DNA of 64,000 nucleotides from Pseudotabrizicola formosa. Lineage in GTDB: Bacteria > Pseudomonadota > Alphaproteobacteria > Rhodobacterales > Rhodobacteraceae. The position numbers were made by a program, and so were the translations under genes. The DNA is taken from the NCBI RefSeq assembly GCF_002900965.1, contig NZ_PJOM01000007.1:1-64000 (forward strand), given 5' to 3'. Numbering within the stretch: position 1 is the first letter of the stretch; each line of letters begins with the position of its first letter. The notes under the pieces are model-generated. The model was not told where the DNA came from and did no database searches. It was given only the letters and a program-made list of their open reading frames with translations. Below are positions 37,688-62,906 of the stretch, in pieces.

Positions 37688-37713
37688 GGAACCTTTGCCG
37701 TCTTGGACGGGTT
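37688..37713 (+). promoter_or_regulatory. EcfG-type promoter candidate upstream of treZ
   Basis: GGAAC (37688-37692) and GGTT (37710-37713) are 17 bases apart. Alphaproteobacterial EcfG promoters read GGAAC-N16/17-CGTT, so spacing is allowed and one -10 base differs. It is weaker than the N16 sites at 44648 and 62821. Confidence 0.45.
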
Positions 37714-37868
37714 GATTTTGCATCATCAAGCCTGTGACCAAGCCGAAAGGGATGATCTGTGTCCATCCGCCTGCCAACCAAGCGACCTATCAAAACCGGT
37801 CAAGTTTCGCCCAAGCCAATACCCGCCGACGGATCAGACGTCGAAGATCCGGGCAGGTCGGCGCAGCT

Positions 37869-39644
37869 ATGACGGGGGCACAACGCGCATACCGCAAAAG
37901 CTGGGGTGCGGAACTGGTTGAGGGCGGGGTCTCCTTTCGTCTCTGGGCCCCGTCACAAAGCCGGTTGACGCTGCGATGTGACGGGCAGGACCACCCGATG
38001 ACGCCAGAAGGCGACGGCTGGTTTGTGCTGACCGTTCCCGGCATCGGTGCGGGGGCGCAATATGGGTTCGTTCTGGAAGACGGGCGCATGGTGCCCGATC
38101 CTGCCGCCCGCGCGCAGGCAGGTGACGTACATGGCCCGTCTGTGGTGACAGATCCACGCGCCTTTGCGTGGTCGCCTTGGCAGGGCCGCCGCTGGCACGA
38201 GGCCGTGATCCTGGAGCTGCACGTCGGAACCTTCACGGCGGAGGGCACCTTTCGTGCCGCGATCGAAAAGCTGCCACATCTGGTCGAAACCGGCATTACC
38301 GCCATTGAGATTATGCCAGTGGCGCAATTCGCCGGTAACCGGGGCTGGGGCTATGATGGGGTTTTGCCCTATGCGCCCCACACCGCCTACGGCAGCCCCG
38401 ATGATCTGAAAGCGTTGATCGATGCCTGTCACCAGCATGGTCTGATGGTGCTGCTGGACGTGGTTTATAACCATTTCGGACCGGAAGGCAGCTATCTGTC
38501 CACCTACGCACCCGACTTTTTCAATGCCGGCCGCCACACGCCCTGGGGCGATGCCATAGCCTTTACCCGCGACCCGGTACGTCAGTTCTTCATAGAAAAC
38601 GCCCTGTACTGGATGGAAGAATTCCACCTGGACGGGCTGCGTCTGGACGCGGTGGATCACCTGTACGACACGTCGGACCCCGAGATACTGGTCGACATTG
38701 CACAAGCGGTGCGCGCGCGGTTTCCCCATGCTCATCTGACCACCGAGGACAACCGTAACATCACCCATCTGCACCAGCGGGACGGCGAAGGCCGACCACA
38801 GCTTTATACGGCAGAATGGAATGACGACTTTCACAACGTTGCCCATGTCATCGCAACCCACGAGAGCGAGGGGTACTATACGGATTTCGTCGAGGATCGC
38901 TGGACCCTGTTTGCCCGCGCGCTGGCGCAGGGCTTTGCCTGGCAGGGTGAGGTGATGCCAAGCAGCGGCGTGGCGCACGGAGAGCCTTCGGCCCATCTGC
39001 CCCCGTTGGCCTTCGTTGATTTTCTTCAAAACCATGACCAGATCGGCAATCGCGCCTATGGCGAGCGGCTGCTGGCACTGTCGTCGTCGGACATGGTGCG
39101 GGCGTTGATGACGATCCACCTGCTGTCGCCCCATGTGCCTTTGCTGTTTATGGGAGAAGAATTTGGCGCGACCCAGCCCTTTGCCTTTTTCACCGATTTT
39201 CACGGTGATCAGGCAGAGGCGGTGCGAGGGGGGCGGCGGGAGGAGTTTGCCAGCTTTGCTGCCTTCAGGAAGAAGGAGATGCGGCGTACCATTCCTGACC
39301 CGAACGATCCGGCCACCTTTGCCGCCTCGCGTATCGACTGGAACCAGGCCGCATCGCACGCAGGGCGCGACTGGCTGGCCTTTACGCGTGGGTTACTGAA
39401 CCTGCGACGGATTTGGGTCATGCCGCATCTGGCGGGGGCAAAGGGGCACGCGGGGCAGGTTCTGATGGCAGAGGATGGGCTGGTCGCGGTGGACTGGCAG
39501 CTGGACGGGATGCGCCTGCAATTGCGGGCCAACCTTTCCAACGACTCCGCAGATCTGCCACCGGCAACAGGCACCTGTTTCATAGGACAACCCGGGGCGC
39601 TTGCGGCCCTGCATGTCGCCGTCTGGGCGGAGCCTTCTTCATGA
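37869..39644 (+). CDS. treZ: Malto-oligosyltrehalose trehalohydrolase
   Basis: The 591-residue GH13 enzyme has an N-terminal carbohydrate-binding domain (GGVSFRLWAPSQSRLTLRCD) and the catalytic barrel with MPVAQFAGNRGWGYDGVLPY, LLDVVYNHFGPEGSYL, GLRLDAVDHLYDT (nucleophile Asp), HLTTEDNRN (acid Glu) and FLQNHDQIGNRAYGERL. It releases trehalose from maltooligosyl-trehalose made by TreY. Neither treY nor glgX is in the window. The ATG at 37869 gives the usual N-terminus; a GTG at 37734 would add 45 basic residues of unlikely coding character. It is probably stress-induced, given the promoter above. Confidence 0.93.
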   Translation: MTGAQRAYRKSWGAELVEGGVSFRLWAPSQSRLTLRCDGQDHPMTPEGDGWFVLTVPGIGAGAQYGFVLEDGRMVPDPAARAQAGDVHGPSVVTDPRAFAWSPWQGRRWHEAVILELHVGTFTAEGTFRAAIEKLPHLVETGITAIEIMPVAQFAGNRGWGYDGVLPYAPHTAYGSPDDLKALIDACHQHGLMVLLDVVYNHFGPEGSYLSTYAPDFFNAGRHTPWGDAIAFTRDPVRQFFIENALYWMEEFHLDGLRLDAVDHLYDTSDPEILVDIAQAVRARFPHAHLTTEDNRNITHLHQRDGEGRPQLYTAEWNDDFHNVAHVIATHESEGYYTDFVEDRWTLFARALAQGFAWQGEVMPSSGVAHGEPSAHLPPLAFVDFLQNHDQIGNRAYGERLLALSSSDMVRALMTIHLLSPHVPLLFMGEEFGATQPFAFFTDFHGDQAEAVRGGRREEFASFAAFRKKEMRRTIPDPNDPATFAASRIDWNQAASHAGRDWLAFTRGLLNLRRIWVMPHLAGAKGHAGQVLMAEDGLVAVDWQLDGMRLQLRANLSNDSADLPPATGTCFIGQPGALAALHVAVWAEPSS

Positions 39645-39831
39645 GTCCAAGCGCGTACCCGACCCTATGACATTCAGTCTGTACTAAGGAGCCTGATGCA
39701 GGCAGCAGCGGCAGACAGCTGTGCACGGGCGACAGACTGGACAGAGCGAGCGCACAGATCTGAAGCGGCGGATCGAGGATGGCATAGGCCCAATCGGGCC
39801 AAAACAATTCACCTCTACCTGAACAGGGCGG

Positions 39832-39966
39832 TCACTCTGTCACCGCATAGGGCGGTGTCTGTGGGCCACTGTCCTCCCCCTGAGCGTCCTGACGTGTGCC
39901 TGCGATCATGTACAAAAGCAGAGCAGCCAGAACCACGAGGAGAATGACAGAAGGTGCGAGGCGCAT
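39832..39966 (-). CDS. Small single-span membrane protein (44 aa) downstream of the PQQ dehydrogenase
   Basis: An overlooked 44-residue ORF starts MRLAPSVILLVVLAALLLYM and continues with a polar tail rich in Gln, Asp, Glu and Pro (47 residues if the ATG at 39975 is used). AAAGGA lies about nine bases before the ATG at 39966, which favours that start. It reads as one N-in transmembrane helix with a periplasmic tail. It is 40 bases downstream of the PQQ dehydrogenase stop, on the same strand, so likely co-transcribed and possibly an accessory subunit. The rest of the 370-base gap (39645-39831) shows only the short hairpin GGCCC-AATC-GGGCC at 39787-39800. Confidence 0.6.
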   Translation of the reverse strand: MRLAPSVILLVVLAALLLYMIAGTRQDAQGEDSGPQTPPYAVTE

Positions 39967-40015
39967 GGGACTCATCCTTTGTGTTCATGTTTGCGGGACT
40001 GACCCTGCATATGGA

Positions 40016-42373
40016 CTATTCGGGCAGAGCATAGGCCAATATGTAATCACCCGGGTCGGTCCCGACCGATCCGTGCCCGCCAGCGACCATCACCAGATAT
40101 TGGCGACCGTCCTGTTCATAGGTCATTGGCGTTGACTGACCGCCCGCAGGCAGCCGGGCGCGCCAGATTTCATCGCCAGTGGTCAGGTCGTAACCGCGCA
40201 GGTAATTGTCAACCGTTGCACCCAGAAAGGCCATTCCGCCGCCGGTGATGATCGGACCACCGATGCCTGGCACCCCCAGCTCGAACGGCAGTGGCAGCGG
40301 GGTCATGTCGCGCACTGTGCCATTCTTGTGCTGCCATAGGGTTTCGCCGGTGCGCAGGTCCACCCCTGCGACATATCCCCATGGCGGTGCCGCGCACGGC
40401 ACCTGCAGCGGCCCCAGAAACGGACCCATGACCACACCATAGGGCGCACCCTCATTGCGGTTCAGACCCTGTTCGCTGGCGGTTTCGCCCTCCACCGGGT
40501 CTGGAATCTGATCGCGCGGCACAAGGCGTACGGTAAAGGGCAGATAGGTTGGCATGCCAAACACCACCTGCCGTACCGGGTCCACCGCGACCGACCCCCA
40601 GTTGAACACCCCGAAGTTACCAGGATGAACGATGGTTCCATTCAGCGACGGCGGGGTATAGCGGCCCTCGTAGTTCAATCGGTGGAGTTGGATACGGCAG
40701 GCCAGCTGATCCAGCATCGTGATGCCCCACATATCCGCGCCGGTCAGCGGATCGGGCATGAAGGTCAGCGCCGAAACCGGCTGTGTCGGGGCGGTGAAAT
40801 CCTCGGGGATCGCGCCGCCCGGCGCGGGAACCTCGGTCACATCTATCAGTGGCGTGCCGGTGCGGCGATCAAGAACATAGATGTCACCCTGTTTGGTGGG
40901 CTGGACCAGCGCCGGAATGTCAGTGCCATCGGATTGCGTCAGATCAACCAGCACCGGCTGCGCGGGCACGTCCATATCCCAAAGATCATGGTGTACGGTC
41001 TGGAACACCCATTCGCGCTGCCCGGTGGCGACATCCAGCGCGACCACCGACGAAGAATGCTCTTCAACCGCGGGGCTGCGGCCCATCCCCAGTTGATCGG
41101 GTACCTGATTGCCGAGCGGAATATAGACCAGCCCCAGCGCCTCATCGACGGAAAAGATCGACCAGCTGTTGGGCGAGTTCGCGCTGTAGGTTTCGCCCCC
41201 GGCTATGTCGATCGGCTCGGTCTGATCCGGGTTGCCGGCATCCCAGTTCCAGATCAGTTCGCCGGTATCAATGTCGAAGGCGCGGATCACGCCCGATTGC
41301 GAATAGATCGAGAAATTGTCATTCACCGCCCCGCCGATGATGATCCGGCCGTCAACGGCGACGGGTGGCGAGGTGGAATAGTAATAGCCTGCCGGATTGT
41401 AGGGCATCCCGGCTTCCAGAGGCAGTTCACCGTCATCCGCGAAAAACGTGCAGCGCGCGCCGGTGTCTGCGTCCAATGCGATCAGCCGGGCGTCTGCCGT
41501 CGGCATATAGACCCGCCGCGCGCAAAGCCCGTCATCCGTCGCGCCGGCCGGGCTTTCCCAATAGGTCACGCCCCGGCAGGTCTGATGCTGGCGGTCCGGG
41601 TTCATCCCGGAATTGGCGTCATAACGCCAGCGCTCTTGCCCCGTCGCCGCATCAAGTGAAATGGCGATGTTGTGGGGGGTGCAGACATACAGGCTGTCGC
41701 CAACCTTGAGCGGCGTCACCTGATAGGTGGTTTCGGTCACATCTTCGGGCAACTTTACATCGCCTGTCTGATAGGTCCATTCCAGTTCCAAAGCGTTCAC
41801 ATTGGCCGGGGTAATCTGGTCGAGCGGCGAATAGCGCTGGCCGTACTGGGTGCGCCCGTACTGGTGCCATTCGCCATCCGGGAAATCTGCACCCATCGCG
41901 GGATCGGCGTTTACAACCTGATCGGGCAGTCGTCCGGCCAGATCATGCGGGTCCTGAAACATCGCGTAAACCGCCACGCCAACGCAGACCAGAGAGGAGA
42001 CCGCAACCGGCAGGGCGGGCGGCCCGCTGCGGATAGGGGCCGGGCTGTTCGGGGCGAAGCCACGCCGGTCTGCCCCCCGCGCCGTTGGCACCAGCAGCAA
42101 AAGACCCAAAATGACGATGATGCCGCCGCGTGGGGCCAGCTGCCACCAGTCAAAGCCAACCTCCCACAGGGCCCAGCCCAGCGTGCCGACCATCAGCGCC
42201 GCGTAGACCCATGTTGCCAGCGGGTTGCGCGTCCGGATCAGCCAGGCAGTCATCAGCAGGACCAGCCCTGCGATGAGATAGTACCAGCTGCCCCCTAAAA
42301 CAGCCAACCACCCCCCTGCTGCCGCCAGCACACCCCCTAACAAGGCAAACACAATCACCGTCAGTAGTTTCAT
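40016..42373 (-). CDS. gcd: Membrane-bound PQQ-dependent dehydrogenase, glucose/quinate/shikimate family
   Basis: The 785-residue protein has about five N-terminal membrane helices (residues 1-130, starting MKLLTVIVFALLGGVLAAAG) and a periplasmic eight-bladed PQQ propeller with the usual blocks (EWHQYGRTQYGQRYSPLDQI, WRYDANSGMNPDRQHQTCRG, NSWSIFSVDEALGLVYIPLG, YVLDRRTGTPLIDVTEVPAP). Such enzymes oxidise sugars or cyclic polyols in the periplasm and pass electrons to ubiquinone. The ATG at 42373 gives the standard membrane N-terminus. Glucose versus quinate specificity cannot be read. An EcfG-like promoter lies 44 bases upstream, implying stress control. Confidence 0.93.
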   Translation of the reverse strand: MKLLTVIVFALLGGVLAAAGGWLAVLGGSWYYLIAGLVLLMTAWLIRTRNPLATWVYAALMVGTLGWALWEVGFDWWQLAPRGGIIVILGLLLLVPTARGADRRGFAPNSPAPIRSGPPALPVAVSSLVCVGVAVYAMFQDPHDLAGRLPDQVVNADPAMGADFPDGEWHQYGRTQYGQRYSPLDQITPANVNALELEWTYQTGDVKLPEDVTETTYQVTPLKVGDSLYVCTPHNIAISLDAATGQERWRYDANSGMNPDRQHQTCRGVTYWESPAGATDDGLCARRVYMPTADARLIALDADTGARCTFFADDGELPLEAGMPYNPAGYYYSTSPPVAVDGRIIIGGAVNDNFSIYSQSGVIRAFDIDTGELIWNWDAGNPDQTEPIDIAGGETYSANSPNSWSIFSVDEALGLVYIPLGNQVPDQLGMGRSPAVEEHSSSVVALDVATGQREWVFQTVHHDLWDMDVPAQPVLVDLTQSDGTDIPALVQPTKQGDIYVLDRRTGTPLIDVTEVPAPGGAIPEDFTAPTQPVSALTFMPDPLTGADMWGITMLDQLACRIQLHRLNYEGRYTPPSLNGTIVHPGNFGVFNWGSVAVDPVRQVVFGMPTYLPFTVRLVPRDQIPDPVEGETASEQGLNRNEGAPYGVVMGPFLGPLQVPCAAPPWGYVAGVDLRTGETLWQHKNGTVRDMTPLPLPFELGVPGIGGPIITGGGMAFLGATVDNYLRGYDLTTGDEIWRARLPAGGQSTPMTYEQDGRQYLVMVAGGHGSVGTDPGDYILAYALPE

Positions 42374-42416
42374 TGTGGAACGTCCCCCGTGCCGCTTCTG
42401 AAATCCCTGCATTGTG

Positions 42417-42441
42417 AACCGTTCGGGCGAGAGAATGTTCC
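42417..42441 (-). promoter_or_regulatory. EcfG-type promoter candidate for the PQQ dehydrogenase
   Basis: On the minus strand GGAAC (42441-42437) is followed after 16 bases by GGTT (42420-42417), about 44 bases before the start codon. This matches the general-stress promoter GGAAC-N16/17-CGTT with one mismatch. Confidence 0.6.
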
Positions 42442-42544
42442 CTGACAATCAATGCGGCCGCAATATGTCGGGTGACACCGCAGAGATCATGGTAGCACAG
42501 CGTCAGAGTAACGCCTGAGCCGGACAGAAACGGCATCCACGAGA

Positions 42545-42574: not shown

Positions 42575-42600
42575 GCCCTGTAAGATCGGCGGGTTTTGCA

Positions 42601-42867: not shown

Positions 42868-42901
42868 CACCAGACCGAGACTGGCAAATCAGAAACCGGC
42901 A

Positions 42902-43474: not shown

Positions 43475-44488
43475 TCAGCTTTTTTGCTGCGTACTGTCCC
43501 ATATCTCCAGAAACGACAGCAGACGCTGCTCGTCCGCGTGCAATCCTGACATCTTTGTCGCTGTCGATGCAGGAAAGGACTGCTGCCGTTCCCTTGGTTC
43601 AAGCGTCGCCAGCTCCAGCACTGCCGGATGAATATAGGAGCTGCGGCAGATGGCCGGTGTATTGTACAGCACCTCTGACGCCGCCTGTGCCATGCCCTTC
43701 ACCGTCAGGCGACCCTCCGGTGGCAAGGCTTGCGCATAGGCAAAGGCGGCCAACGTCCCGCCCCATGTGCGGAAGGTCTTTGCGGTCACACCTTCGCCCA
43801 TCACATGGGCAAGCCAGCCATTGACCTCGCCCGATGTCACGGCCCGCGGTCCGCCATCTGCATCAACATAGGTGAACAGCTGCCGCCCCGGCAGATCACC
43901 CACCGCCTGCAAGACCCGGTGCAGCTTGCGGTCGCGCAAGACTTTGCGAAGCCTTTTGCCGCCCTTCGATGTGAAATTCAGCCGCACGCCATCCTTGCCG
44001 ATCCGTACATGCCGCCGCAGCAAGGTGGTGGCTCCAAAAGACGCATTCTGCGCTGCATATTCCGGATTGCCGATCCGCAGAAAGCTGCGGTCGAGAAGCA
44101 GGACCAAGGCCGCCAGCGTGAAATCAAGCCCGCCGGGGGCGTGGCGCAAAGCACGATCCAGCCGCGCCCGCAAGGCAGGCAGTGCCCTGCAAAAGGCCAC
44201 CAGTCCAGCATATTTGGTGCTGGCTTGCGCCATCTGCCAGTCAGGGTGATAGCGGTACTGTTTACGCCCCCGCGCATCGCGCCCGGTGGCCTGCAAATGG
44301 CCGTCTCCCCGTGGGCAGATCCAGACATCGGTATACGCAGGCGGCACCCCCAGCTTTTCAACGCGACGCCGCTCTGCCCCGGTCAGAATACTGCCATCCG
44401 GGGCGGTATAGCTGAACCCCCGGCCTGCCCGCTTGCGGCGGATGCCAGGCTCGTGATCCGAGACATAGACAAGGGACTTTCCCATCAT
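43475..44488 (-). CDS. DNA topoisomerase IB (poxvirus-like)
   Basis: The 337-residue enzyme has the N-terminal topo-IB domain (GRGFSYTAPDGSILTGAERR, AYTDVWICPRGDGHLQATGR) and catalytic domain with RKQYRYHPDWQ, the Arg/Lys region SFGATTLLRRHVRIGKDGVR, KTFRTWGGTLAAFAYA and the nucleophile Tyr in ICRSSYIHPAVLEL. It relaxes supercoils through a 3-prime phosphotyrosine. Two adjacent ATGs (44488, 44485) begin the conserved MGKSLVYVSDHEPG. A weak EcfG-like promoter lies upstream. Bacterial topo IB genes are accessory and often linked to stress functions. Confidence 0.93.
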   Translation of the reverse strand: MMGKSLVYVSDHEPGIRRKRAGRGFSYTAPDGSILTGAERRRVEKLGVPPAYTDVWICPRGDGHLQATGRDARGRKQYRYHPDWQMAQASTKYAGLVAFCRALPALRARLDRALRHAPGGLDFTLAALVLLLDRSFLRIGNPEYAAQNASFGATTLLRRHVRIGKDGVRLNFTSKGGKRLRKVLRDRKLHRVLQAVGDLPGRQLFTYVDADGGPRAVTSGEVNGWLAHVMGEGVTAKTFRTWGGTLAAFAYAQALPPEGRLTVKGMAQAASEVLYNTPAICRSSYIHPAVLELATLEPRERQQSFPASTATKMSGLHADEQRLLSFLEIWDSTQQKS

Positions 44489-44520
44489 CGCTCCGTAGGC
44501 GCAGGCTGCGCCGGAGGGCA

Positions 44521-44546
44521 ACACCGCGGCGCAGTGCCCGGTTCCG
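44521..44546 (-). promoter_or_regulatory. Weak EcfG-type promoter candidate for topoisomerase IB
   Basis: On the minus strand GGAAC (44546-44542) precedes TGTT (44524-44521) by 17 bases. The -10 has one mismatch to CGTT and the spacing is at the upper limit, so this is the weakest of the set. Confidence 0.3.
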
Positions 44547-44647: not shown

Positions 44648-44672
44648 GGAACATGCGGCCCGGCACGGCGTT
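44648..44672 (+). promoter_or_regulatory. EcfG-type promoter for the MscS-family channel
   Basis: GGAAC (44648-44652) and CGTT (44669-44672), exactly 16 bases apart, are a perfect match to the alphaproteobacterial general-stress promoter. They lie 30 bases before the mscS start codon. Confidence 0.7.
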
Positions 44673-44701: not shown

Positions 44702-46606
44702 ATGCGCCTGCTTGCTGCTTGCCTTGCCCTGCTTTTGCCGCCCTGTCAGGCCATGGCCTTTGAGTTGACGGATATTCCCCAAGCGATAAGACGCGGCGGC
44801 AACCGCTTGCTTCAGGCCCTGCCCGATCAGTCAGTGTGGACCGGCTGGGCGGATCTTATGGCCCAGGTGATGTGGGTCTGGTTGGCGGCTCTGGCCGTGC
44901 TGGTCCTCGGCCGGGCCGTGATGCTCGGGCGGCGGAAAACACAGGCCATTGCGGCGCGAGCGGCGCTGAGCGGTGCCGGGCGGTGGACAGCGCTTGGCCG
45001 CTACGCCTTGGCCGTGCTGGGGCCGGTGTTGTTGGCTGGCCTTGTGCTCATTTTGTGGGCTGTGCTTGCCGCACCGTCTTCCGGCCGGATCAGAATCATG
45101 GTGGTGCTAACCTTTCCTGTTCTCGCGGGAGCTTTCGCCGCGGCACTCGCCAATTGCGGCTTCACTCTGCTGGCCGCCCATGGCCGCCAGACCGACCGCG
45201 ACATCACCCGGCAGCTGCCGCCCCAAGCCGGGCTGATTGCAGGCCTGATCGGTTTTGCCGCCGTTGTGCGCAGCATTGGTTTGAGCCCCGATCCGTTTCT
45301 GTCAGATTTCATCGCCACACTGGCCGAAACGATTGCGGCGCTGATCGCCTGGCGTGCCACCAGTCAGCAACGCCTGACGCTGCGCCACCTTTTGCGCGGC
45401 GAAAGTCAGACGCCCGATGCCGATCCTCCCACCTTGCCCGAACGGCTGACAGCTGCAATTGCCGACCACTGGCACATCCTGAGTTATCTGTTCATCACGC
45501 TGAACCTGCTGGCTCGATACGGGGTTTTCGGTGCTGATCGCCGCTTTGGGATGTTCGGTGATCTGACCGGCAGCCTTGCCCTGCTGACCGCTGCCGGAGT
45601 CGGGGTGCTGCTTGCCGAATGGCTGCATGGCCGGATTCTCGCCAGATTGCAGGTAAGGGCCGACTCCGGCCTGCGCGAACGCCTTGCGCTACGACTGGGG
45701 CGGGTGCTGCGCACGGGGCTTCAGATCGCTATCTCGCTCTGGGCAGGTGCTGCATTGCTGACCCTGTGGGAGCCAGAGCTCATTCTGCGGCTGACCAGCA
45801 CTGCACTGTTCGGGGCAGTGACGACCACATTGATGGCGCTGTATTCGCTGTGGTTCATCTGGACATTGGTGGATGCCGTTCTGGACTGGTCCGCCGCGCA
45901 AAGCGTCGGGCGCGGTACGCGGATGCGCACGCTGTTGCCGTTTTTGCGGAACTTTGCCTTTGTGGTGGTGGCAACTCTGGCGGGAATATCAGTTCTGTCG
46001 AACCTTGGGGTCAACGTCGCTCCGTTGCTCGCGGGCGCAGGTGTGGTCGGGATCGCCATCGGCATCGGTGCGCAGAAACTGGTCAGTGATGTGATCACCG
46101 GCATCTTCATCATCTTTGAAGACAGCATTGCCATCGGAGAGGTGATAGAGGCCGCCGATAAAACCGGCGTGGTTGAAGGTCTGACAATCCGCACCCTGCG
46201 GCTGCGCGATGGTGACGGTGCACTGTTCTCGATTCCGTTTTCGTCGATCACTACATTGAAAAATGCCTCGCGCGGCTATGGCACTTACACCATTACCGTC
46301 ACCCTGCTTAATCCCGAAGACACCAATCGCGCCATGGCAGAAGTGGCGCGTATCGGGCGTGAAGTGTCCGAAGATGCGTCATGGGCCCCATTGGTTATTA
46401 CACCTTTCTCGCTTTGGGGGGTTGATCAGGTTTCGCCTGGGGGCGTTGTCATCAAGGGCAATATCCAGTCGCGCCCAAATGCCCAATGGGCAATAGGGCG
46501 CGAAATCAACAGACGCATCGCACTGCGCTTTGCCGAACTGGGGATCGCACAGGTTCATCCGGTGATGCACTGGGGCGGACCGGGGCCAGGAAAGCTGCCG
46601 GAGTGA
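44702..46606 (+). CDS. Mechanosensitive ion channel, MscS family, large form
   Basis: The 634-residue protein has a signal peptide (MRLLAACLALLLPPCQAMA), about ten hydrophobic segments, and a C-terminal MscS unit. That unit has the pore helix region VNVAPLLAGAGVVGIAIGIG, AQKLVSDVITGIFIIFEDSI and the beta domain GVVEGLTIRTLRLRDGDGAL, from about residue 430. It opens under membrane tension to release solutes after hypo-osmotic shock. The ATG at 44702 is chosen because GGAAG lies six bases upstream and it creates a signal peptide; ATGs at 44681 and 44684 are alternatives. It fits a stress/osmotic theme with treZ and the ots remnants. Confidence 0.92.
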   Translation: MRLLAACLALLLPPCQAMAFELTDIPQAIRRGGNRLLQALPDQSVWTGWADLMAQVMWVWLAALAVLVLGRAVMLGRRKTQAIAARAALSGAGRWTALGRYALAVLGPVLLAGLVLILWAVLAAPSSGRIRIMVVLTFPVLAGAFAAALANCGFTLLAAHGRQTDRDITRQLPPQAGLIAGLIGFAAVVRSIGLSPDPFLSDFIATLAETIAALIAWRATSQQRLTLRHLLRGESQTPDADPPTLPERLTAAIADHWHILSYLFITLNLLARYGVFGADRRFGMFGDLTGSLALLTAAGVGVLLAEWLHGRILARLQVRADSGLRERLALRLGRVLRTGLQIAISLWAGAALLTLWEPELILRLTSTALFGAVTTTLMALYSLWFIWTLVDAVLDWSAAQSVGRGTRMRTLLPFLRNFAFVVVATLAGISVLSNLGVNVAPLLAGAGVVGIAIGIGAQKLVSDVITGIFIIFEDSIAIGEVIEAADKTGVVEGLTIRTLRLRDGDGALFSIPFSSITTLKNASRGYGTYTITVTLLNPEDTNRAMAEVARIGREVSEDASWAPLVITPFSLWGVDQVSPGGVVIKGNIQSRPNAQWAIGREINRRIALRFAELGIAQVHPVMHWGGPGPGKLPE

Positions 46607-46634: not shown

Positions 46635-47171
46635 CTATTCAATCACCGCGCAGGCAAGACGCTCACCCGCGTCACCGCTGGGCTGAGTGCGGTAATCATC
46701 CGGTTGGGCATGCACCATCAGCGCCCGCCCCCGCGCAAGATTATCGCCTTCGGTCAGCACGATAAAGGGGTTGAAAACCTGTGCCTTGGCGACACCTGAC
46801 GCATCCACCCAAAGATTGGGCATATCTCCGGCATGTGGCCCGAGCTCTGCAAAATAGCCGTGCTCGGTCTGGGACGGGTTGAAATGCTCCCCCGCCGAGT
46901 CATGCCCAGTGGCAGGATCGCAGCTGCCGGTCTCATGGATGTGGAAGGCCACCCAACTTTCAGGCGGCAGACCGGACACCTCTACCTCGATCAGCACACC
47001 ATTTGGCGCGGCACTCAGGATCGCCGAGCCCGCAGGCTGACCCATATTGTCTATGAACTCTGCCGTGGTGTTGTGTTGCGCAGCGAGCGGGGCAGATGCC
47101 AATGCAGCCAAGCCAAGGCACAGAACGATGAATTCATAAGGGATGGACTTGGGGGCAAAGAGACGGTGCAT
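46635..47171 (-). CDS. sodC: Periplasmic Cu/Zn superoxide dismutase
   Basis: The 178-residue protein has a signal peptide ending ASAPLAAQ and all SodC metal sites: WVAFHIHETGSCD (His-x-His, disulfide Cys), HDSAGEHFNPSQTEHGYFAE, LGPHAGDMPN and ALMVHAQPDDY, with the second Cys in GERLACAVIE. It converts periplasmic superoxide to peroxide and oxygen. The ATG at 47171 is favoured because AAAGGAAA precedes it; an ATG at 47186 would add five residues. It is convergent with the mscS gene. An EcfG-like promoter lies about 50 bases upstream. Confidence 0.95.
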   Translation of the reverse strand: MHRLFAPKSIPYEFIVLCLGLAALASAPLAAQHNTTAEFIDNMGQPAGSAILSAAPNGVLIEVEVSGLPPESWVAFHIHETGSCDPATGHDSAGEHFNPSQTEHGYFAELGPHAGDMPNLWVDASGVAKAQVFNPFIVLTEGDNLARGRALMVHAQPDDYRTQPSGDAGERLACAVIE

Positions 47172-47220
47172 CAGATTTCCTTTCATGGACCATTTTCCAT
47201 TTTGGGGCCGTACCCGTCGC

Positions 47221-47245
47221 AACTGGCAGCGCCGCCGATTGTTCC
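47221..47245 (-). promoter_or_regulatory. EcfG-type promoter candidate for sodC
   Basis: On the minus strand GGAAC (47245-47241) is followed after 16 bases by AGTT (47224-47221), about 50 bases before the sodC start. One base of the -10 differs from CGTT. Confidence 0.55.
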
Positions 47246-47397
47246 CTCCGTCAGAGGTCGGCCGGCTCTTCCCTGACAAAAAGCGCCGCCCGTTTCTCAT
47301 CCGCCGCACGAAAATCCGCCCCAAATTCATAGCGCAAGACAGACTGGCGTCGCTTCCGGGAGGATCGCGCTGCCGTGCGACTGCTCAGGATTTTCTC

Positions 47398-48621
47398 GGA
47401 ACGCAATCCGCCCTTCAGGGCTTCTTCTGTGCAGAGGAGGAGGCCGCACCCGGCAAGATCCTGCACGAAATCCGTGGCGGAGAGATGGCCCGCATGGGCG
47501 AAGTGCCGTTCGGGCGGTCTTACGGCGGTGTCGACACAACCCCCTTGTTCGTGCATCTGACGGCAGAATACGCCCGTCGTACCGCTGATGACGCTTTTAT
47601 CGACTCGATCTGGCCAGCGTTGAAAAAGGCGGTGTCATGGATCGAAACCATCCGTGCGCAGGATAGCAACGGTTTGGTGTCTTATGCCCGCAAGCGCGGC
47701 ACCGGACTGCGCAATCACGGCTGGAAAGACAGCGCCGATGCGGTGTTCCACGCAGACGGCTCATTGGCAGATGGTCCGGTCAGTCTGGTCGAAGTGCAGG
47801 GCTACGCCTATCTGGCGCTGACCGGCATGGCGGCAATGGCAGCCCGACGCGGTGAAGACGCCTAAACCGAAACCTTGCTGACCAGCGCCCGGCAATTGCG
47901 CGAGACCGTCGAAGACCGGTTCTGGATGCCAGAGGCGCAATTCTACGCCCTCGCGCTCGACGGAGCGTCGCGGCGATGCGCTGTCCGCACAAGCAACGCG
48001 GGGCACCTGTTGTACTCTGGCCTGCCCTCTCAGGTCCGGGGGCAAGCCGTTGCCCGCGCCCTGCTGAAGCCGGATTTCATGTCGGACTGGGGCTTGCGCA
48101 CCGTGGCCATCGGTGAGGCGCGTTTCAACCCGCTGTCCTATCACAACGGCTCGGTCTGGCCGCATGACACCGCAATCTGCAGTGCCGGCATCCAGCACTA
48201 TGCGCAACCGGAAACAGCCGCGCGTGCCCTTGCCCGTCTGTTCGAGGCGTCCTTTCATTTCGGCAAAAGGGTGCCCGAGCTGTTTTGCGGTTTTGCGCGG
48301 GTGCCGGGCGAAGGGCCGGTCGGCTATCCTGTCGCCTGCGTGCCACAGGCTTGGGCGGCGGCATCTGCCTTTCTGCTGCTTAAAACCACGCTTGGCCTTC
48401 AGCTTGATGCGTATGCGCGGGAGGTCAGGGTAATAGATCCCCGCCTCCCCGCAGGGATCGATCAGCTCAGCCTGCGGAATATTGATGTGGCCGGGACAAA
48501 AGTCGGGGTCGAATTTCAGCGGAAAGGCGATCAGGTCACATGTACCGCCAACAGGTCCGGCAGCGCCTCTGTTCCTGCAAAGGTAGCCGAAATCATGACG
48601 GCCCCGCGATCAGTGCGCTAG
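47398..48621 (+). pseudogene. Glycogen debranching enzyme (amylo-alpha-1,6-glucosidase) remnant
   Basis: Recognisable sequence starts within FLGTQSALQGFFC and includes APGKILHEIRGGEMARMGEV, SYGGVDTTPLFVHLTAEYAR and GLRNHGWKDSADAVFHADGS, the (alpha/alpha)6 barrel of GDE_C. An in-frame TAA at 47863-47865 interrupts it, and the same frame resumes (RETVEDRFWMPEAQFYALAL, SYHNGSVWPHDTAICSAGIQ) to a stop at 48621. About half of a normal enzyme, the whole N-terminal part, is missing. It is therefore truncated and carries a nonsense codon. The sequence just upstream (47187-47397) is not recognisable coding DNA. It belongs to a run of damaged trehalose/glycogen genes. Confidence 0.85.
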
Positions 48622-48683
48622 GCCTTTTGCGCTCCCTCCCACCGAGCGCTCTGATGACACCGAGGAGCATTGCAAGCCAAGAT

Positions 48684-49800
48684 GAGCGCGCAGGACAACA
48701 ATTCTGCACGTGATCCTGCGCCGTCAGCGATGCTTGCCACTCATCCGGGCAAGTTGAACCGGCTTCGCAGCTACTTCAATCCGGAACGGTTGACCTCTGC
48801 CGCTGCCCACGCCTTGGCAAGGGCGAAGACCGCAACGTTCGACCGGCTGAAGGCTTCTGGGCTCAGCACAATACAGTCCCCGCCCTTCCCCTGCCCCGAA
48901 CCCCAACGACTGGGATCTGACGCGCCTGCGCGCCATGATCAAACACGAACTGGCCAGAACCGACGTGATCATCGTGTCAAACCGGGAACCCTATGTTCAC
49001 TCCGCCGGGCCCGATGGACCGCGCTGTTCGGTGCCTGCCGGTGGCCTCGTTTCGGCGCTTGAACCCATTGCGCGTGGATGCGGCGGCACATGGATTGCCC
49101 ATGGCAGCGGATCGGCCGACCGTGAGACGGTCGACGCGCAGGACCGGATTCAGGTGCCCCCCGGCAACCCCAGTTATACCCTGCGCCGGGTCTGGCTAAG
49201 CCCCGAAGAGGAGAGGGGTGGCGCTGTTCCGCATCAATTTCATCGACTGCATAGACCGCACACTGGAAAGCCGCATAAATCACGAAACCTGGTCTGTGCG
49301 CTATGGCGGCAAGGTCTCGCGCGTCCGCACCTACCCGATTTCCATAGCCTGGCCGGACCGTCCCCCGCAGCCGCCCCACACACCTTTTGCACGCGAAGCG
49401 CTTGGCATGAAGTCGGCCGCAAAGCTGATCCTCGCCGTCGGCAGGCTCGATTATACAAAAGGCATCCCCGAATTCATGCAGGCGTTTGAAGATCTGCTGA
49501 CACGGCATCTTGAACTCCGCGGCAATGTGCATCTGTATCATGTCGCAGCCCCCAGCCGCAGCGAAGTAGCCTCTTACCGCAGCCTTCATCACAATTGCCT
49601 GCGGATCAGCCAGGCGATCAACGACCGTTTTGGCACCGAAGATTACACGCCGCTGCTGTTCGTCGACCGCCATTTCGACCGCGAGGAGCAAGAACATCTA
49701 TCGCTGGGCAGGACGGATGCTGGAAGATGCGGCGCAGGTGCGCAGCCGCAATCAGATGCTCCGCCGCAGCGGCAGCGCAGCGGATCGTCCGGCGCGTGGC
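48684..49800 (+). pseudogene. otsA: Trehalose-6-phosphate synthase (otsA, long form) remnant
   Basis: Fragments of a glycosyltransferase family 20 enzyme occur in order but in different frames: an N-terminal stretch (LRSYFNPERLTSAAAHALAR), then NDWDLTRLRAMIKHELARTD, VIIVSNREPYVHSA and GTWIAHGSGSADRETVDAQD, then LFRINFIDCIDRTLESRINH, ILAVGRLDYTKGIPEF and HVAAPSRSEVASYRS, and finally NIYRWAGRMLEDAAQV near 49693. At least two blocks are deleted: one after LSPEEE near 49212, and a large one near 49690 that removes most of the C-terminal Rossmann domain. Frameshifts separate the pieces. No functional enzyme can be made. Confidence 0.85.
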
Positions 49801-49849
49801 GATGTGCTCGGCCCGTCAGACACTTCTTTTCAGGCGACAGGAAAACCCG

Positions 49850-50580
49850 ATGCAAAAGCCCCCCGTCCCTAACCTGTCCGAAACCGCCCTGTTTCTCGAC
49901 ATCGACGGTACACTTGTTGAACATGCGGCACATCCAGAGGGCGTGCGTGTCGCGCCGGATTTGCCGGATATTCTGGGAAAGCTGAACCTGAAGCTGGAGG
50001 GTGCCATCGCCTTTGTGACCGGGCGAACCTGACCATGGTGGAGAAGCTCTTCGGACAGCTCGGGCTTGCGGCCGCGGGCACCTTCGGGATCGAACTGATG
50101 CACGGTGACGCGCTTGAAACCGGCGGTGAGGCTGCGGCCCTCGTCGCGCCGGTGTTTGACGCATTGGAAAATTCATTTTCAGGCACCGATGGCGTCTATT
50201 TTGAACACAAGGGCGCGGTCCTTGCCATTCACACCCGCGCCGCGCCCGAGGCATTGACGACAGTCATCGCGCGCTGCCGCGAAACCTTGCTGCTGCCCGA
50301 TGGGTACCGCCTTGTCGAGGGCCACGCGGGCGTCGAATTTCTGCCAGAGGGGGCGACAAAAAGCGCTGCCATCGCGTGGTTCATGACCCGCCCACCCTTT
50401 CGCAACCGGGTGCCGGTCTTTCTGGGCGACGATACTTCCGATGAAATCGGCTTTGAATGGACCAATCATAACGACGGCATTTCTGTGCGCGTCGGCGCAC
50501 CAAAGCCGACAGCAGCGAAACATGCGCTGGAGACCGTGCCAGAGGTGCATGACTGGCTAAAGAAACTTGCGCGCCAGTAG
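49850..50580 (+). pseudogene. otsB: Trehalose-6-phosphate phosphatase (otsB) split by a single-base frameshift
   Basis: The first part starts at ATG 49850 behind CAGGAAAACCCG and holds the HAD motif ALFLDIDGTLVEHAAH. It ends at TGA 50030-50032 just after IAFVTGRT. A new frame starts at ATG 50035 and carries the rest (FGIELMHGDALETGGE, GYRLVEGHAGVEFLPEGATK, FLGDDTSDEIGFEW). Inserting one base before 50030 would fuse the halves into a normal ~240-residue enzyme, so a 1-base deletion is the simplest explanation. The second half could be translated by re-initiation but lacks the catalytic Asp pair. A sequencing error cannot be excluded. Confidence 0.85.
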
Positions 50581-50600: not shown

Positions 50601-50792
50601 CTAGCCCGTTTCGGGCAGGTCTTTCGCCTCGTTGCCCTCTCGGGCCTGCCGATCCAGCGCGACCTGGAGCTGTTGTGCCATGTCAACCAAGTGTTGGGGC
50701 ACGGGTTCTGCGGCGATGCCCTTCATAAGATCTGCAGCCATACCCACAAGATCATCGGCGGAAGGGTGTGCCTCATTCTGGCTGGCCGGCAT
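50601..50792 (-). CDS. nepR: NepR-like anti-sigma factor
   Basis: The 63-residue protein has the NepR core: a first helix (ADDLVGMAADLMKGIAA), the conserved EPVP turn, then a second helix (QHLVDMAQQLQVALDRQA), with disordered tails. NepR sequesters EcfG until phosphorylated PhyR binds it during stress. AGGGA lies about five bases before the ATG at 50792. It is divergent from a broken ecfG-like gene, the usual nepR/ecfG neighbourhood. PhyR is not in the window. Confidence 0.6.
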   Translation of the reverse strand: MPASQNEAHPSADDLVGMAADLMKGIAAEPVPQHLVDMAQQLQVALDRQAREGNEAKDLPETG

Positions 50793-50885
50793 GCTAGTCC
50801 CTAAATTCTTGGCGTTACATTTCATATAATGCGCCCCAGAAACTTAGCCAACATCAATGCGTTTTCACATCACACGCTCGTGTCT

Positions 50886-51113
50886 TTGAAAACAATCGTG
50901 AACAGCATGGCAGATCAGGCTTTGCGCCTACGGACGCCATGCCGCGTCCCCACCGATGCCGACGATCTGCCGCAGCAGACGCTGACAAAAGCGCTCGCCA
51001 ATATCGATAAATTCACGCCGGGTACTTGATTGCGGACCTGGCTTTTTACCATCATGCCAAACATCTTTCACACCAATACCGTTCTGCGGTCCCGGAAAAC
51101 CACAGGTGGCCGA
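50886..51113 (+). pseudogene. EcfG-like ECF sigma factor remnant
   Basis: Read on the plus strand, ALRLRTPCRVPTDADDLPQQ and TLTKALANIDKFTPGT match sigma region 2 of EcfG (normally DADDLVQETLLKALANIDKF). An in-frame TGA (51027-51029) replaces the usual Asn codon, and LRTWLFTIMPNIFHTNTVLR continues the same frame, matching the following LRAWLFTILRN block. Region 4 is absent. So it is a truncated pseudogene with a nonsense codon, beside nepR. Confidence 0.7.
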
Positions 51114-51219
51114 GCAGCTCGCCCGCAGCACCGCCATCATTGCGCTGAATTTACAGAAAATGCCCTTACAAAAGAACGCCTGACATGCTATTTTCGCATA
51201 TCCCGTCAATAATTGTGCC

Positions 51220-59580: not shown

Positions 59581-59748
59581 TCGCGCCCCAGGTCTCTGGG
59601 GTGCCGAACGCATCGAAACGTGCCCTATGATCTTTACCCGCACCGAGCCTTGGATCAGCCGGGTGCAAGTCAGCTGTCGGCCGTCCGGCCCGCGCCTGAC
59701 TTGCCATGACCGATGCGCCGCAAGACAGGCCGCATCACGGCGCAACCA

Positions 59749-59841
59749 CTATCCGTTCACGAGAATGGCAAAGCCGAGCGCCATACCGAGGGCAAAGACC
59801 ACAACGGCGGCAGCAAGAACACGGGCGTAGGTTTTTCGCAT
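59749..59841 (-). CDS. 30-residue membrane peptide downstream of the ferric-reductase-like gene
   Basis: A tiny ORF (MRKTYARVLAAAVVVFALGM and ten more residues ending VNG) begins four bases after the ferric-reductase stop on the same strand (TAA-CCTG-ATG), so translational coupling is plausible. It is basic at the start and then one hydrophobic helix. It is too short for automatic callers. Coding is inferred from its clean membrane pattern and spacing; no family is recognised. The rest of the gap to tctE (59602-59748) shows no other gene. Confidence 0.45.
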   Translation of the reverse strand: MRKTYARVLAAAVVVFALGMALGFAILVNG

Positions 59842-59845
59842 CAGG

Positions 59846-61231
59846 TTACACCAGATCAAAGACTTCAAGGTCGATCTGCCGTGCGTGCACCCCCATGCCA
59901 AGCAGGGCGGCGATCACGGCATCGGTCATCGGTGCCGGGCCGCACAGCATATGTGGCCAGTCGCGTGTTGCCGCGGGCAGGTGGCGGCGCAACAGCGCTT
60001 CATCGATACGGCCAGATTCGCCCTGCCAGTCTTCGGGTGGCGTTTCAGGCACATGCACCACGGTCAGGTCAATGTCCCGCGCCATCCGCTCCAATTCTTC
60101 ACGGAACGGCGCGTCCTCCAAAGTGGCATTGGCATAGATCAATATGACGGGGCGCGCATCTTTACGCGATTGCATGGCGTGCAGGTTGGCGATCACCGGC
60201 GTGATGCCAACACCACCTGCGATCATGACAAAGCCATCTGCCGCGCCTTCACGGTCTATGGAAAAGGTTCCGAACGGGCCATCCACATAGGCGATTGTGC
60301 CCGGCTGCGTCTGAGTCAAACGTTGAGAATCGTCTCCCAGAGGTTTGATGGAAAAGGATATCTCAGGGCCACGGTCCGGAGCGGTCGAGATGGTAAAAGG
60401 GTGTTCTTTCATGGACCACGGTGAATGTCCGACCGAGAGCCAGGCAAACTGTCCCGGGCGCCACGCTGTCAGCGCCTGGCCCTCCGGGCGCAGGGTCAGC
60501 GTGTGGACCCCGCCGCGTTCAGCCACGTTTGACACCACGCGCCACGGATTGGCACGTTGCCGCATCGGACGCAGCACCCGGGACCAGAGGATAAAGCCAA
60601 CCCAGACCAGAGTCGCGCCCAGCCAGAGGGCGCGGACATCCTGCATCGCACTGTACTTGCCAACACCCAGCACATGCGCCACCGCCGCTGCAAAGCCGGT
60701 GACAGCCAGCAGCACATGCATGACCCGCCACCAGTGGTAGTCCAGCTTCAGGCGCTTTCGGAGCTCTGACGTCACAATCAAGGCCACGAAGCACAGCAGT
60801 GCAACGCGCCCCGACGTCAGCTCCCAGCGGGCTGTCAGCGGGTTCAACTCTCCGAGCGCGGGCTGGTAGAAGATATAAAGCACGCCGAAATGCACCAGCA
60901 TAAGCGCCACGGTGCCCCAGCTGACAAGGCGATGAAAAACATAGACGATATCTGCGCCAAACGGATTGGTCAGCAGTTTGATCCGCCCCGTCAGCGCGAA
61001 TTGCATGGCGATGAGGGACAGCGCGGCGAAGCCACAGCCCATCGAGAAATCCCACAGGACAGAGGTGGGCGGCGGGCGAAAATCGCCGCCGAGGAGCACG
61101 ATGAACGGCAGCGCGATCAGGCCAAAGCCCACGAAAAGCCAAAAAGCGACGCGCAAGGCAACGAATGCAGGCCTGTCGGCCAGTCGGATGAATTGCTCCG
61201 GTGGGGAGGCGTGGGGGGATGGTCGGTCCAT
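59846..61231 (-). CDS. Ferric reductase-like transmembrane flavoprotein
   Basis: The 461-residue protein has about six membrane helices with a ferric-reductase domain (FHRLVSWGTVALMLVHFGVL, LDYHWWRVMHVLLAVTGFAA, giving haem-ligand His pairs). An FAD domain (WRPGQFAWLSVGHSPWSMKE then HPFTIST) and an NAD-binding domain (VMIAGGVGITPVIANLHAMQ, MLCGPAPMTDAVI) follow. It should move electrons from NAD(P)H across the membrane via FAD and haem to an external acceptor. The ATG at 61231 is preferred to a GTG at 61243. It is followed by a tiny membrane ORF. Confidence 0.88.
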   Translation of the reverse strand: MDRPSPHASPPEQFIRLADRPAFVALRVAFWLFVGFGLIALPFIVLLGGDFRPPPTSVLWDFSMGCGFAALSLIAMQFALTGRIKLLTNPFGADIVYVFHRLVSWGTVALMLVHFGVLYIFYQPALGELNPLTARWELTSGRVALLCFVALIVTSELRKRLKLDYHWWRVMHVLLAVTGFAAAVAHVLGVGKYSAMQDVRALWLGATLVWVGFILWSRVLRPMRQRANPWRVVSNVAERGGVHTLTLRPEGQALTAWRPGQFAWLSVGHSPWSMKEHPFTISTAPDRGPEISFSIKPLGDDSQRLTQTQPGTIAYVDGPFGTFSIDREGAADGFVMIAGGVGITPVIANLHAMQSRKDARPVILIYANATLEDAPFREELERMARDIDLTVVHVPETPPEDWQGESGRIDEALLRRHLPAATRDWPHMLCGPAPMTDAVIAALLGMGVHARQIDLEVFDLV

Positions 61232-61410
61232 CGCTAAGAACACCGAAAGAGAACAAACGGTTCCCTGCGACCGGGGTCAGGGCAGCGCGTGAGGCTGATC
61301 ATGGCTTGCACCTTTCGCGCAGTCAAACACACGGATGACCGCTGCCCTCGCCGTCGCAGCAGTGCAAGAAATTGTAGGGCCAGACTTTCCTGATCGGTCC
61401 CACGACGGCC

Positions 61411-61578
61411 CTAGCGAGAGGACGGGGGCAGTTTTTTCTGCAGCGCCTCAATCAGCCTTTGCAGATGCTCGGGAACCGGAGCTTGAAGATCGGCCTCAAA
61501 GGCGAGGCGCAGGTTGATATCTATCTGCTGCGCCATCTGGTTTTGGTGTTGGGACTTGCAGTCTCCAGGTTTGGTCAC
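61411..61578 (-). CDS. Second NepR-like small protein (orphan)
   Basis: The 55-residue ORF begins at a GTG preceded by AGGAGTATAGGAT. Its core, IDINLRLAFEADLQAPVPEH then LQRLIEALQKKL, matches the NepR layout of two helices around a (E/A)PVP turn, closer to Rhodobacteraceae NepR than the copy at 50601. No sigma factor lies beside it. It may be a second anti-sigma or a partner-swapping variant. An internal ATG at 61536 would give 41 residues. Confidence 0.55.
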   Translation of the reverse strand: MTKPGDCKSQHQNQMAQQIDINLRLAFEADLQAPVPEHLQRLIEALQKKLPPSSR

Positions 61579-61669
61579 ATCCTATACTCCTGCTTACACG
61601 CGCAATTTTCCAGCTTCCGGAGGAAGTGAGTTGCACGTTTTGAAACGCGCCATCGACGCCCGGTTCGGA

Positions 61670-62353: not shown

Positions 62354-62367
62354 CTTTGTCTCTTTGT

Positions 62368-62415
62368 CCAAAAAACAAACCGTCCGGCGTGCACTGATGT
62401 GAGCGCCGGACGGTT
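62368..62415 (-). terminator. Strong intrinsic terminator of the PRC-barrel gene
   Basis: On the minus strand AACCGTCCGGCG (62415-62404) pairs perfectly with CGCCGGACGGTT (62389-62378) around a 14-base loop, followed by TGTTTTTTGG. It lies seven bases after the PRC-barrel stop, so the DUF421 gene needs its own promoter or read-through. Confidence 0.85.
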
Positions 62416-62421
62416 CTTCGG

Positions 62422-62718
62422 TCAGTGGTGATGTTCGGGCAGCTCTTCAAGCTGTTCCTTGGTCCAGGTCGTCGAGCCATGAACCTTGCCGGCCTCATCC
62501 CGCATCAGGTTCAACTGATCGGCGCTCACCAGGACCTGTCTTGCGCCGATCCCAAGAAAGCCGCCAACATCAAGAACAACCTGCATGCCCGCTCCGCTGC
62601 CATGCACATGCGATACGGTTCCGACCTTTTCATCATTGACGCCATAAACCGGGGCATTTCTTACCAGTGCCTCTGTCAAGTCAGCTGGCGGAATAAGGGT
62701 GTGTTTGCTGTGGTCCAT
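62422..62718 (-). CDS. Small PRC-barrel-domain protein
   Basis: The 98-residue protein has a PRC-barrel-like fold (ALVRNAPVYGVNDEKVGTVS, QVVLDVGGFLGIGARQVLVS) and a His-rich end (EELPEHHH). Small stand-alone PRC-barrel proteins are common general-stress genes in alphaproteobacteria. AGGAGG lies five bases before the ATG at 62718, which settles the start. A perfect EcfG promoter lies upstream and a strong terminator follows, so it is a single-gene stress unit. Confidence 0.88.
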   Translation of the reverse strand: MDHSKHTLIPPADLTEALVRNAPVYGVNDEKVGTVSHVHGSGAGMQVVLDVGGFLGIGARQVLVSADQLNLMRDEAGKVHGSTTWTKEQLEELPEHHH

Positions 62719-62820
62719 CTGGACCTCCTGTTGCTTGCGGTGCGTATCTGACACCTGAGGGCTCTGTGCTTCTGATGGCGACAGCGATGCCGCGGCCAGC
62801 AGAGGCGTTCGGTCAGGGTG

Positions 62821-62845
62821 AACGGCCCGGAGCCGGAAATGTTCC
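62821..62845 (-). promoter_or_regulatory. EcfG-type promoter for the PRC-barrel gene
   Basis: On the minus strand GGAAC (62845-62841) and CGTT (62824-62821), 16 bases apart, match the general-stress consensus perfectly. The messenger leader would be about 95 bases. Confidence 0.7.
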
Positions 62846-62881
62846 GGTGCCTCATGGCTTTCCGCCACTTTGCCGACGCCT

Positions 62882-62906
62882 GGAACATTTGGCCTCGCAA
62901 AGGGTT
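62882..62906 (+). promoter_or_regulatory. EcfG-type promoter for the SDR gene
   Basis: GGAAC (62882-62886) and GGTT (62903-62906) are 16 bases apart, 35 bases before the SDR start. Together with the site at 62821 it makes a divergent pair of stress promoters. Confidence 0.6.

Follow-up and report, generated by a model that had tools for sequence, protein, structure and literature searches.

Promoter-like sites and genes at the locus

The window analysed here is the whole stretch formed by the first 64,000 nucleotides (nt) of contig NZ_PJOM01000007.1 of Pseudotabrizicola formosa (C12, 96,234 bases; C7 and C8 below are other contigs of the same genome). Its right-hand part carries a series of sites in which a GGAAC -35 box and a GTT -10 box are separated by a spacer of 16 or 17 nt (N16 and N17 sites), an exact pattern match to the form of EcfG-type promoters of the general stress response. 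The sites and the genes behind them are listed below (PQQ, pyrroloquinoline quinone; SDR, short-chain dehydrogenase/reductase), with distances given to the gene starts that were chosen.

37688-37713, plus strand: N17 site upstream of the treZ-like gene, 156 nt from its preferred start
40016..42373, minus strand: membrane-bound PQQ dehydrogenase of the glucose/quinate/shikimate family (TIGR03074, 1117.8 bits, cut-off 832.65)
42417..42441, minus strand: N16 site, GGAAC-N16-GGTT, 44 nt upstream of the PQQ dehydrogenase start (42373)
43475..44491, minus strand: bacterial DNA topoisomerase IB (PF21338 and PF01028)
44520..44545, minus strand: N17 site, 29 nt upstream of the topoisomerase IB start (44491)
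44648..44672, plus strand: N16 site with CGTT, 30 nt upstream of the MscS start (44702), or 12 nt for an alternative start
44702..46606, plus strand: MscS-family mechanosensitive channel (PF00924, PF21088)
46635..47171, minus strand: sodC, Cu/Zn superoxide dismutase (PF00080, Sod_Cu, 129.4 bits)
47221..47245, minus strand: N16 site with AGTT, 50 nt upstream of the sodC start (47171)
61239-61264: additional N17 site, 8 nt upstream of the start of a ferric-reductase-like gene (59846-61231)
62422..62718, minus strand: PRC-barrel protein (PF05239, 25.2 bits, cut-off 21.2)
62821..62845, minus strand: N16 site with CGTT, 103 nt upstream of the PRC-barrel start (62718)
62882..62906, plus strand: N16 site with GGTT, 35 nt upstream of the SDR start (62941)
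62941..63792, plus strand: SDR oxidoreductase (PF13561, 198.7 bits)

All five N16 sites had been named in the original prediction, made from the letters alone, and each was found letter for letter at its coordinates and on its strand, exactly two of them (44648 and 62845) with a perfect CGTT. The two N17 sites that it named also exist. The one before topoisomerase IB is well placed, but the one before treZ is doubtful because of its distance from the preferred start; the name treZ is itself the label of that prediction, for a product that matches alpha-amylase and DUF3459. The additional N17 site is too close to the ferric-reductase-like gene, unless the true start of that gene lies farther downstream. 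The cluster continues beyond the right edge of the window, up to C12:68,601, and the whole plasmid holds nine N16 sites (minus strand: 42441, 47245, 62845, 64505, 65205, 65816 and 68601; plus strand: 44648 and 62882). All nine are in sense, 12-103 nt before a gene start, and five of them have the CGTT -10 box.

The contig is a circular 82.8-kb repABC plasmid, since its two ends overlap by 13,445 identical bases, which gives a molecule of 82,789 bp. Its replication genes lie in the window.

7494..11028, minus strand: replication/partition block of RepC (NF040974, over the cut-off), ParB-like and ParA-like proteins (ParA and ParB domains)

The first 13.4 kb of the window are present twice in C12. 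Near the replication genes, a pair resembling a PIN-domain toxin and its antitoxin was noticed by eye at 6403-7052, with a second copy at C12:89192-89841. When positions 40000-64000 of the window were compared with plasmid DNA, 25 records matched, none of them covering 80%, and no near-full match was found.

Frequency and position of the sites

The frequency of N16 sites was compared with that of decoy sites, in which the same boxes are set at spacings of N6-N29 without 16 and 17 (22 spacings). In the window, five N16 sites were counted against a decoy mean of 1.0 (Poisson P = 0.004), and two decoys, N15 with five and N28 with six, matched or exceeded that count. The bare window count is therefore modest evidence, and the earlier statement that the sites are far above chance was too strong for it. 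The statement is secured by other means: the count and positions on the whole plasmid, the share of the genome's matches that the plasmid holds, and the recurrence of the sites before homologous genes. On the whole 82,789-bp plasmid, there are nine N16 sites against a decoy mean of 1.55 and a maximum of 6 (P = 3.5e-5). Of the sites between 37.6 and 70 kb, those that lie in the sense orientation 10-120 nt upstream of a start number 9 of 9 for N16, 1 of 4 for N17 and 1 of 7 for decoy spacings, in a test that used 26 starts picked by eye and in which the MscS start was shifted (from 12 to 30 nt) after its site had been seen.

The narrower pattern GGAACAW-N14-NGTT has 18 matches in the 3.70-Mb genome, with 14 for the reversed control. 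Seven are on this plasmid, three lie within 3 kb on C8 near another ecfG paralogue, and eight are elsewhere; the plasmid makes up 2.2% of the genome's bases yet holds 7 of the 18 (binomial P = 7e-8). The 17 of 20 chromosomal 20-kb stretches that had not been chosen for an ecfG hold six N16 sites in a total of 340 kb, which is the level of the other spacings. Genome-wide searches found no chromosome-wide regulon of the exact form GGAAC-N16-CGTT (40 matches against 76 for the reversed pattern) or GGAACC-N15/16-CGTT (29 against 36). Taken with the recurrence described below, the sites are very probably real EcfG-type promoters, and the original prediction was right that they resemble such promoters and form a real cluster ahead of stress genes.

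The plasmid-borne EcfG paralogue and NepR-like ORFs

The canonical general stress locus of the host is intact on C7, with phyR (minus strand), nepR (plus) and ecfG1 (plus). The plasmid encodes an EcfG paralogue of its own, ecfG2 (C12:65260-65775, minus strand), 1.3 kb to the right of the window. Its product has a PhyR-like sigma2 domain (PF22029, 58.1 bits) and a sigma4 domain (PF08281, 55.3 bits) and shares 44% identity over 149 residues with host EcfG1. In a quick tree with long branches, EcfG2 falls in a Rhodobacterales EcfG2 group (18 rows, support 96), apart from the clade of host EcfG1. The tree has 106 rows; L122 was omitted by a length filter, and a pattern filter removed the fourth paralogue of the host and 10 of 29 loci (L125-L153) from relatives. 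Unlike canonical ecfG1, ecfG2 does not have phyR and nepR together in its locus and, because the only PhyR of the genome, a single copy, is on C7, it is a secondary EcfG. One of the nine N16 sites, C12:65816-65792 with CGTT, is the promoter site of ecfG2 itself.

Three small NepR-like open reading frames (ORFs) and the remnant of another ecfG gene are on the same plasmid.

50601-50825, minus strand: NepR-like ORF of 74 residues, divergent to the ecfG remnant and a member of the alignment that matches NepR at 69%
50919-51122, plus strand: remnant of an ecfG gene akin to ecfG2, decayed and interrupted by an in-frame stop codon
61411-61578, minus strand: NepR-like ORF of 55 residues (PF18557, 24.9 bits, cut-off 25.7)
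C12:65861-66073: NepR-like ORF of 70 residues that adjoins ecfG2 and is divergent to it

Over 64 residues, the remnant has 70% identity with ecfG2; its identity with ecfG1 is 48%, and its DNA matches the ecfG2 region at 82% over 157 bp. A homologue of the ORF at 61411-61578 stands directly behind ecfG2 in a genome of the same genus (G007, L188:7328-7441, 66%). The ORFs at 50601-50825 and C12:65861-66073 gave no Pfam match up to E = 1. R. xinxiangensis, two Falsirhodobacter and LNNU 3342 have similar divergent small ORFs next to ecfG2, and a profile comparison of the alignment of these ORFs with that of NepR gave a probability of 69% (E 4.4e-5), so that kinship with NepR is suggestive, no more. 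In a pattern search of 78 loci, four matched, two of them (L050 and L055) unconvincingly, and L045 and L054 were identified from their position; nothing convincing was seen beside the other ecfG2 genes scanned, although at least four loci (L082, L088, L097 and L117) were scanned at the wrong place. A divergent NepR-like ORF beside ecfG2 has thus been shown for a few Rhodobacterales only. The NepR-like ORFs might regulate EcfG2, a role that we regard as possible but somewhat doubtful.

Two further observations were made around the ecfG paralogues of this genome. A paralogue at C8:22731-23165 has four N16 sites within 20 kb (L170, C8:14001-34000) and a large catalase gene nearby; this region is possibly a second, smaller island. 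Adjoining the decayed remnant in the window, at 47143-50580, are pieces of sugar-stress genes that seem truncated or split, by decay or by an assembly error.

47143-47865 and 47875-48621: two parts of an MGH1-like glycoside hydrolase
49218-49985: short GT20 (otsA-like) piece
50035-50580: trehalose-phosphatase ORF

Recurrence of the sites before homologous genes

If the sites function as promoters, they should return before homologues of the same genes. This was examined chiefly in a set of 80 loci that surround genes for EcfG2 relatives (the 80 best-matching of 551, 1,568,666 bp, mostly Rhizobiales). In this set there are 438 N16 and 203 N17 sites, and 24-55 sites at each of 16 other spacings (N8-N25). 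An N16 or N17 site precedes 35 of 37 genes for the ferritin-like DUF892 protein, 21 of 30 PQQ dehydrogenase genes and 41 of 83 ecfG2 genes, with 0-2 for pairs of decoy spacings in each case. Recurrence was weaker before topoisomerase IB (1 of 4), homologues of the ORF at C12:64142-64450 (2 of 7) and SDR (1 of 7); the single treZ gene has a site. No site was found before the three PRC-barrel homologues or the one sodC gene of the set.

For SDR and sodC, the sites do recur among homologous loci that include the plasmid's own. An N16 or N17 site lies within 300 nt upstream of SDR in 12 of 14 loci (N16 in nine, N17 in four, both in one), and seven other spacings give one match, which overlaps a real site. 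An N16 site precedes sodC in 7 of 19 loci, namely in all five of the closest and in seven of the nine in the family, compared with 0-2 loci for each of ten other spacings. The two sites that stand back to back between the PRC-barrel and SDR genes return as a pair before SDR in three genomes of the same genus (L188, L189 and L190), where the partner gene opposite SDR looks different by eye. MscS homologues were found in just 2 of 195 genomes, its own included, which is too few for recurrence to be judged.

Two classes of promoter

The -10 box differs between ecfG promoters and the other sites. In 16 loci taken to be core loci (the host's own and 15 relatives', with all N16 and N17 sites counted and L132, L139, L147 and L148 left out), CGTT is found in 42 of 47 sites and a C follows GGAAC in 35. 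The ecfG2-type promoters of the 80-locus set are similar, with CGTT in 39 of 42 and C after GGAAC in 34 of 42. The other N16 sites of that set have CGTT in 113 of 422 and an A after GGAAC in 205; at decoy spacings, the C is found in 70 of 218. CGTT is present in only 1 of 22 sites before PQQ dehydrogenase genes.

A second set of 25 loci gave CGTT in 11 of 18 ecfG promoters (N16 and N17 sites) versus 21 of 141 other sites (N16 only; Fisher P = 5e-5), and 105 of these 141 have an A after GGAAC. Ten of its loci are shared with the 80-locus set, one is the window's own plasmid, and one (L203) is a canonical locus. When relatedness was roughly controlled by comparing 21 genus-like groups, each with an ecfG2 promoter site and at least three island sites and some defined by the first word of the record title, the CGTT share of the ecfG2 promoter was higher in 16 groups, lower in three and tied in two (P = 0.004). 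On the plasmid itself, an A follows GGAAC in 7 of the 8 sites other than the ecfG2 promoter.

Clustering around secondary ecfG genes on other plasmids

EcfG2 matches at E 1e-20 or better were found in 508 of 72,556 plasmid records, a number that includes canonical EcfG genes (e.g. that of Roseobacter ponti) and distant ones down to approximately 37% identity. The R. ponti plasmid p1 (L203, 101 kb) carries a whole canonical locus of response regulator, NepR-family anti-sigma factor, sigma factor and histidine kinase.

Sites without the C crowd at ecfG2 on several plasmids: 12 of 28 lie within 30 kb on R. etli p42f, 10 of 16 within 11 kb in P. marcusii, 26 of 35 within 50 kb in Roseinatronobacter and 9 of 16 within 23 kb in P. 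liaowanqingii. Whole-plasmid tests of this crowding gave P values from 2e-6 to 2e-21 for these four plasmids, which were picked in the knowledge of a cluster and tested over intervals set after the sites had been viewed. The annotated neighbours on such plasmids include genes for ferritin-like, PRC-barrel, SDR, YetF and ExoD-like proteins, catalase and superoxide dismutase, as well as trehalose genes. In a search of the open-licence literature by listings and abstracts, and in the papers cited here, we met no report of this crowding of nGTT sites around secondary ecfG genes or of the split between CGTT and non-C promoters.

Comparison with known systems

Earlier papers already describe several elements of this arrangement: copies of EcfG on plasmids, paralogues ordered in a hierarchy, one of them with a neighbouring NepR-like ORF, and a -10 box with C or G (PMC3892343, PMC6180224, PMC4814048, PMC7083833). 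One close likeness is to EcfG2 of Rhizobium etli (PF00052, plasmid p42f), which is described as a secondary EcfG encoded on a plasmid, with the canonical locus on the chromosome, in a subgroup whose members are all plasmid-borne (PMC3892343). Around its gene, 45 kb hold 14 N16 sites, two of them with CGTT, and each of the other spacings yields 0-4. In contrast to the plasmid studied here, the published description mentions no anti-sigma gene nearby (PMC3892343), and in our tree the R. etli protein has a long branch and falls outside the EcfG2 group of the window. The same study reports finding no EcfG2 motif; of 19 units with lowered expression in the ecfG2 mutant, only 1 fitted GGAAC-N16-CGTT (PMC3892343). 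This fits a different -10 box without proving it.

In Sinorhizobium meliloti, RpoE5 on pSymB is likewise described as a secondary sigma factor (group ECF15) on a large plasmid and a direct target of RpoE2, with an adjoining ORF similar to the anti-sigma factors RsiA1 and RsiA2 (PMC6180224, PMC3616915). In a related strain, the 24 kb around the gene hold five N16 and three N17 sites. Methylobacterium extorquens, too, is reported to have several EcfG and NepR copies, and its consensus is given as GAAC-N16,17-C/GGTT, so that a G in the -10 box was known (PMC4814048). The same source states that a NepR homologue encoded at META2 binds PhyR, with no EcfG partner found for it, and its account of M. 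extorquens, unlike ours, describes no crowding of targets around secondary ecfG genes. Two EcfG paralogues in a hierarchy are described for Sphingopyxis granuli (EcfG1/EcfG2) and Caulobacter (SigT/SigU), with CGTT and variant -10 boxes at their targets (PMC7083833, PMC4814048). The reported S. granuli locus has nepR2-ecfG1 and ecfG2 divergent from each other (PMC7083833), whereas here the core locus is on the chromosome and ecfG2 on a plasmid.

Proposed regulation and alternative explanations

The reading that we favour, from sequence comparison, is that the sites are EcfG-type general stress promoters of a stress island on a repABC plasmid with an EcfG paralogue of its own, under two-tier control; this is probable, and EcfG2 seems on balance the likeliest main reader of the island promoters. 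By the mechanism known from the literature, the genes for which are present, stress would act through PhyR and NepR to free chromosomal EcfG1. EcfG1, or EcfG2 itself, would then transcribe ecfG2 from the CGTT promoter at C12:65816-65792, an upper step with precedents in sigU under SigT (PMC4814048) and rpoE5 on pSymB under RpoE2 (PMC6180224, PMC3616915), as those sources describe them. EcfG2, and to some degree EcfG1, would transcribe the island from GGAACA-N15-nGTT promoters, with the PQQ dehydrogenase, MscS, sodC, PRC-barrel, SDR, the ORF at C12:64142-64450, the ferritin-like DUF892 protein and DUF2231 as predicted targets. The plasmid NepR-like ORFs may, more speculatively, restrain EcfG2 or bind PhyR.

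A number of observations weigh against this reading. The contrast between promoter classes is weak on this very plasmid, where 4 of the 8 other sites have CGTT and could thus be read by EcfG1; all four sites of Ensifer L202 have CGTT, and several Rhodobacterales have an ecfG2 promoter without it. Not every ecfG2-type gene has a cluster: N16 counts in 20 kb are one for P. alcaliphilus and zero for P. denitrificans, and the close relatives L044, L045, L046 and L048 have no N16 site other than the ecfG2 promoter. In S. meliloti, RpoE5 overexpression is reported to have yielded a single putative target (PMC6180224). Finally, no motif was found before R. etli katG, reported as EcfG2-dependent, in 500 nt searched at N15-N18 with at most one mismatch. 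This result either counts against an EcfG2 motif or is a sign of indirect control.

Among the other explanations, the most serious, in line with the original prediction, is that host EcfG1 reads the sites directly, with plasmid EcfG2 at most an amplifier, the role described for Caulobacter SigU. The intact phyR-nepR-ecfG1 locus and the CGTT of core promoters in half of the island sites here would agree with it, as would SigU, which PMC4814048 describes as lacking a regulon of its own. We nevertheless think it rather unlikely, since in many genomes and plasmids the sites crowd at secondary ecfG genes and there mostly lack CGTT (present in 21 of 141), and N16 counts are at background in the 17 chromosomal stretches that contain no known ecfG. 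Host sigma control is not supported in its original form, for the same plasmid encodes an EcfG paralogue and NepR-like ORFs, and the island promoters of relatives differ from those of the core loci. A different extracytoplasmic function (ECF) sigma factor whose -35 box is similar could also be imagined, given that the genome has further weak ECF matches and that group ECF26 is described with a related GGAATA box (PMC6180224). The crowding, however, accompanies EcfG paralogues in many genera, and GGAAC-N16/17-GTT is common to the core nepR/phyR/ecfG loci, so this is improbable. Least credible are chance matches in a GC-rich plasmid. They would fit the N15 and N28 counts in the window alone and the absence of genome-wide enrichment of the loose CGTT pattern, but not nine of nine sites in sense before starts, the recurrence before homologues, or 438 sites against 24-55 in the 80-locus set.

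More generally, and tentatively, secondary EcfGs, many of them plasmid-borne, could be a two-tier system with a promoter code of their own. Their genes would have GGAACC-N15/16-CGTT promoters, and their targets, within tens of kb, would have GGAAC(A/T)-N15 followed by a GTT often not preceded by C, which the core sigma factor would read poorly. Such a self-clustered regulon, sometimes joined by a NepR-like regulator, could pass from one alphaproteobacterium to another as a whole, with only the PhyR-EcfG1 of the host needed to start it.

Biological significance

About half of the completed alphaproteobacterial genomes are reported to have more than one EcfG copy, a fact whose role was called not satisfactorily explained (PMC3892343). 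The crowding of nGTT sites at secondary ecfG genes, together with the usual CGTT before ecfG itself, offers a candidate motif, a defined set of targets and a testable hierarchy for these paralogues. Because a relative of EcfG adjoins stress genes that share one start signal, the plasmid of P. formosa probably supplies some of the control over them itself. This suggests that plasmids can spread stress tolerance together with some of its regulation.

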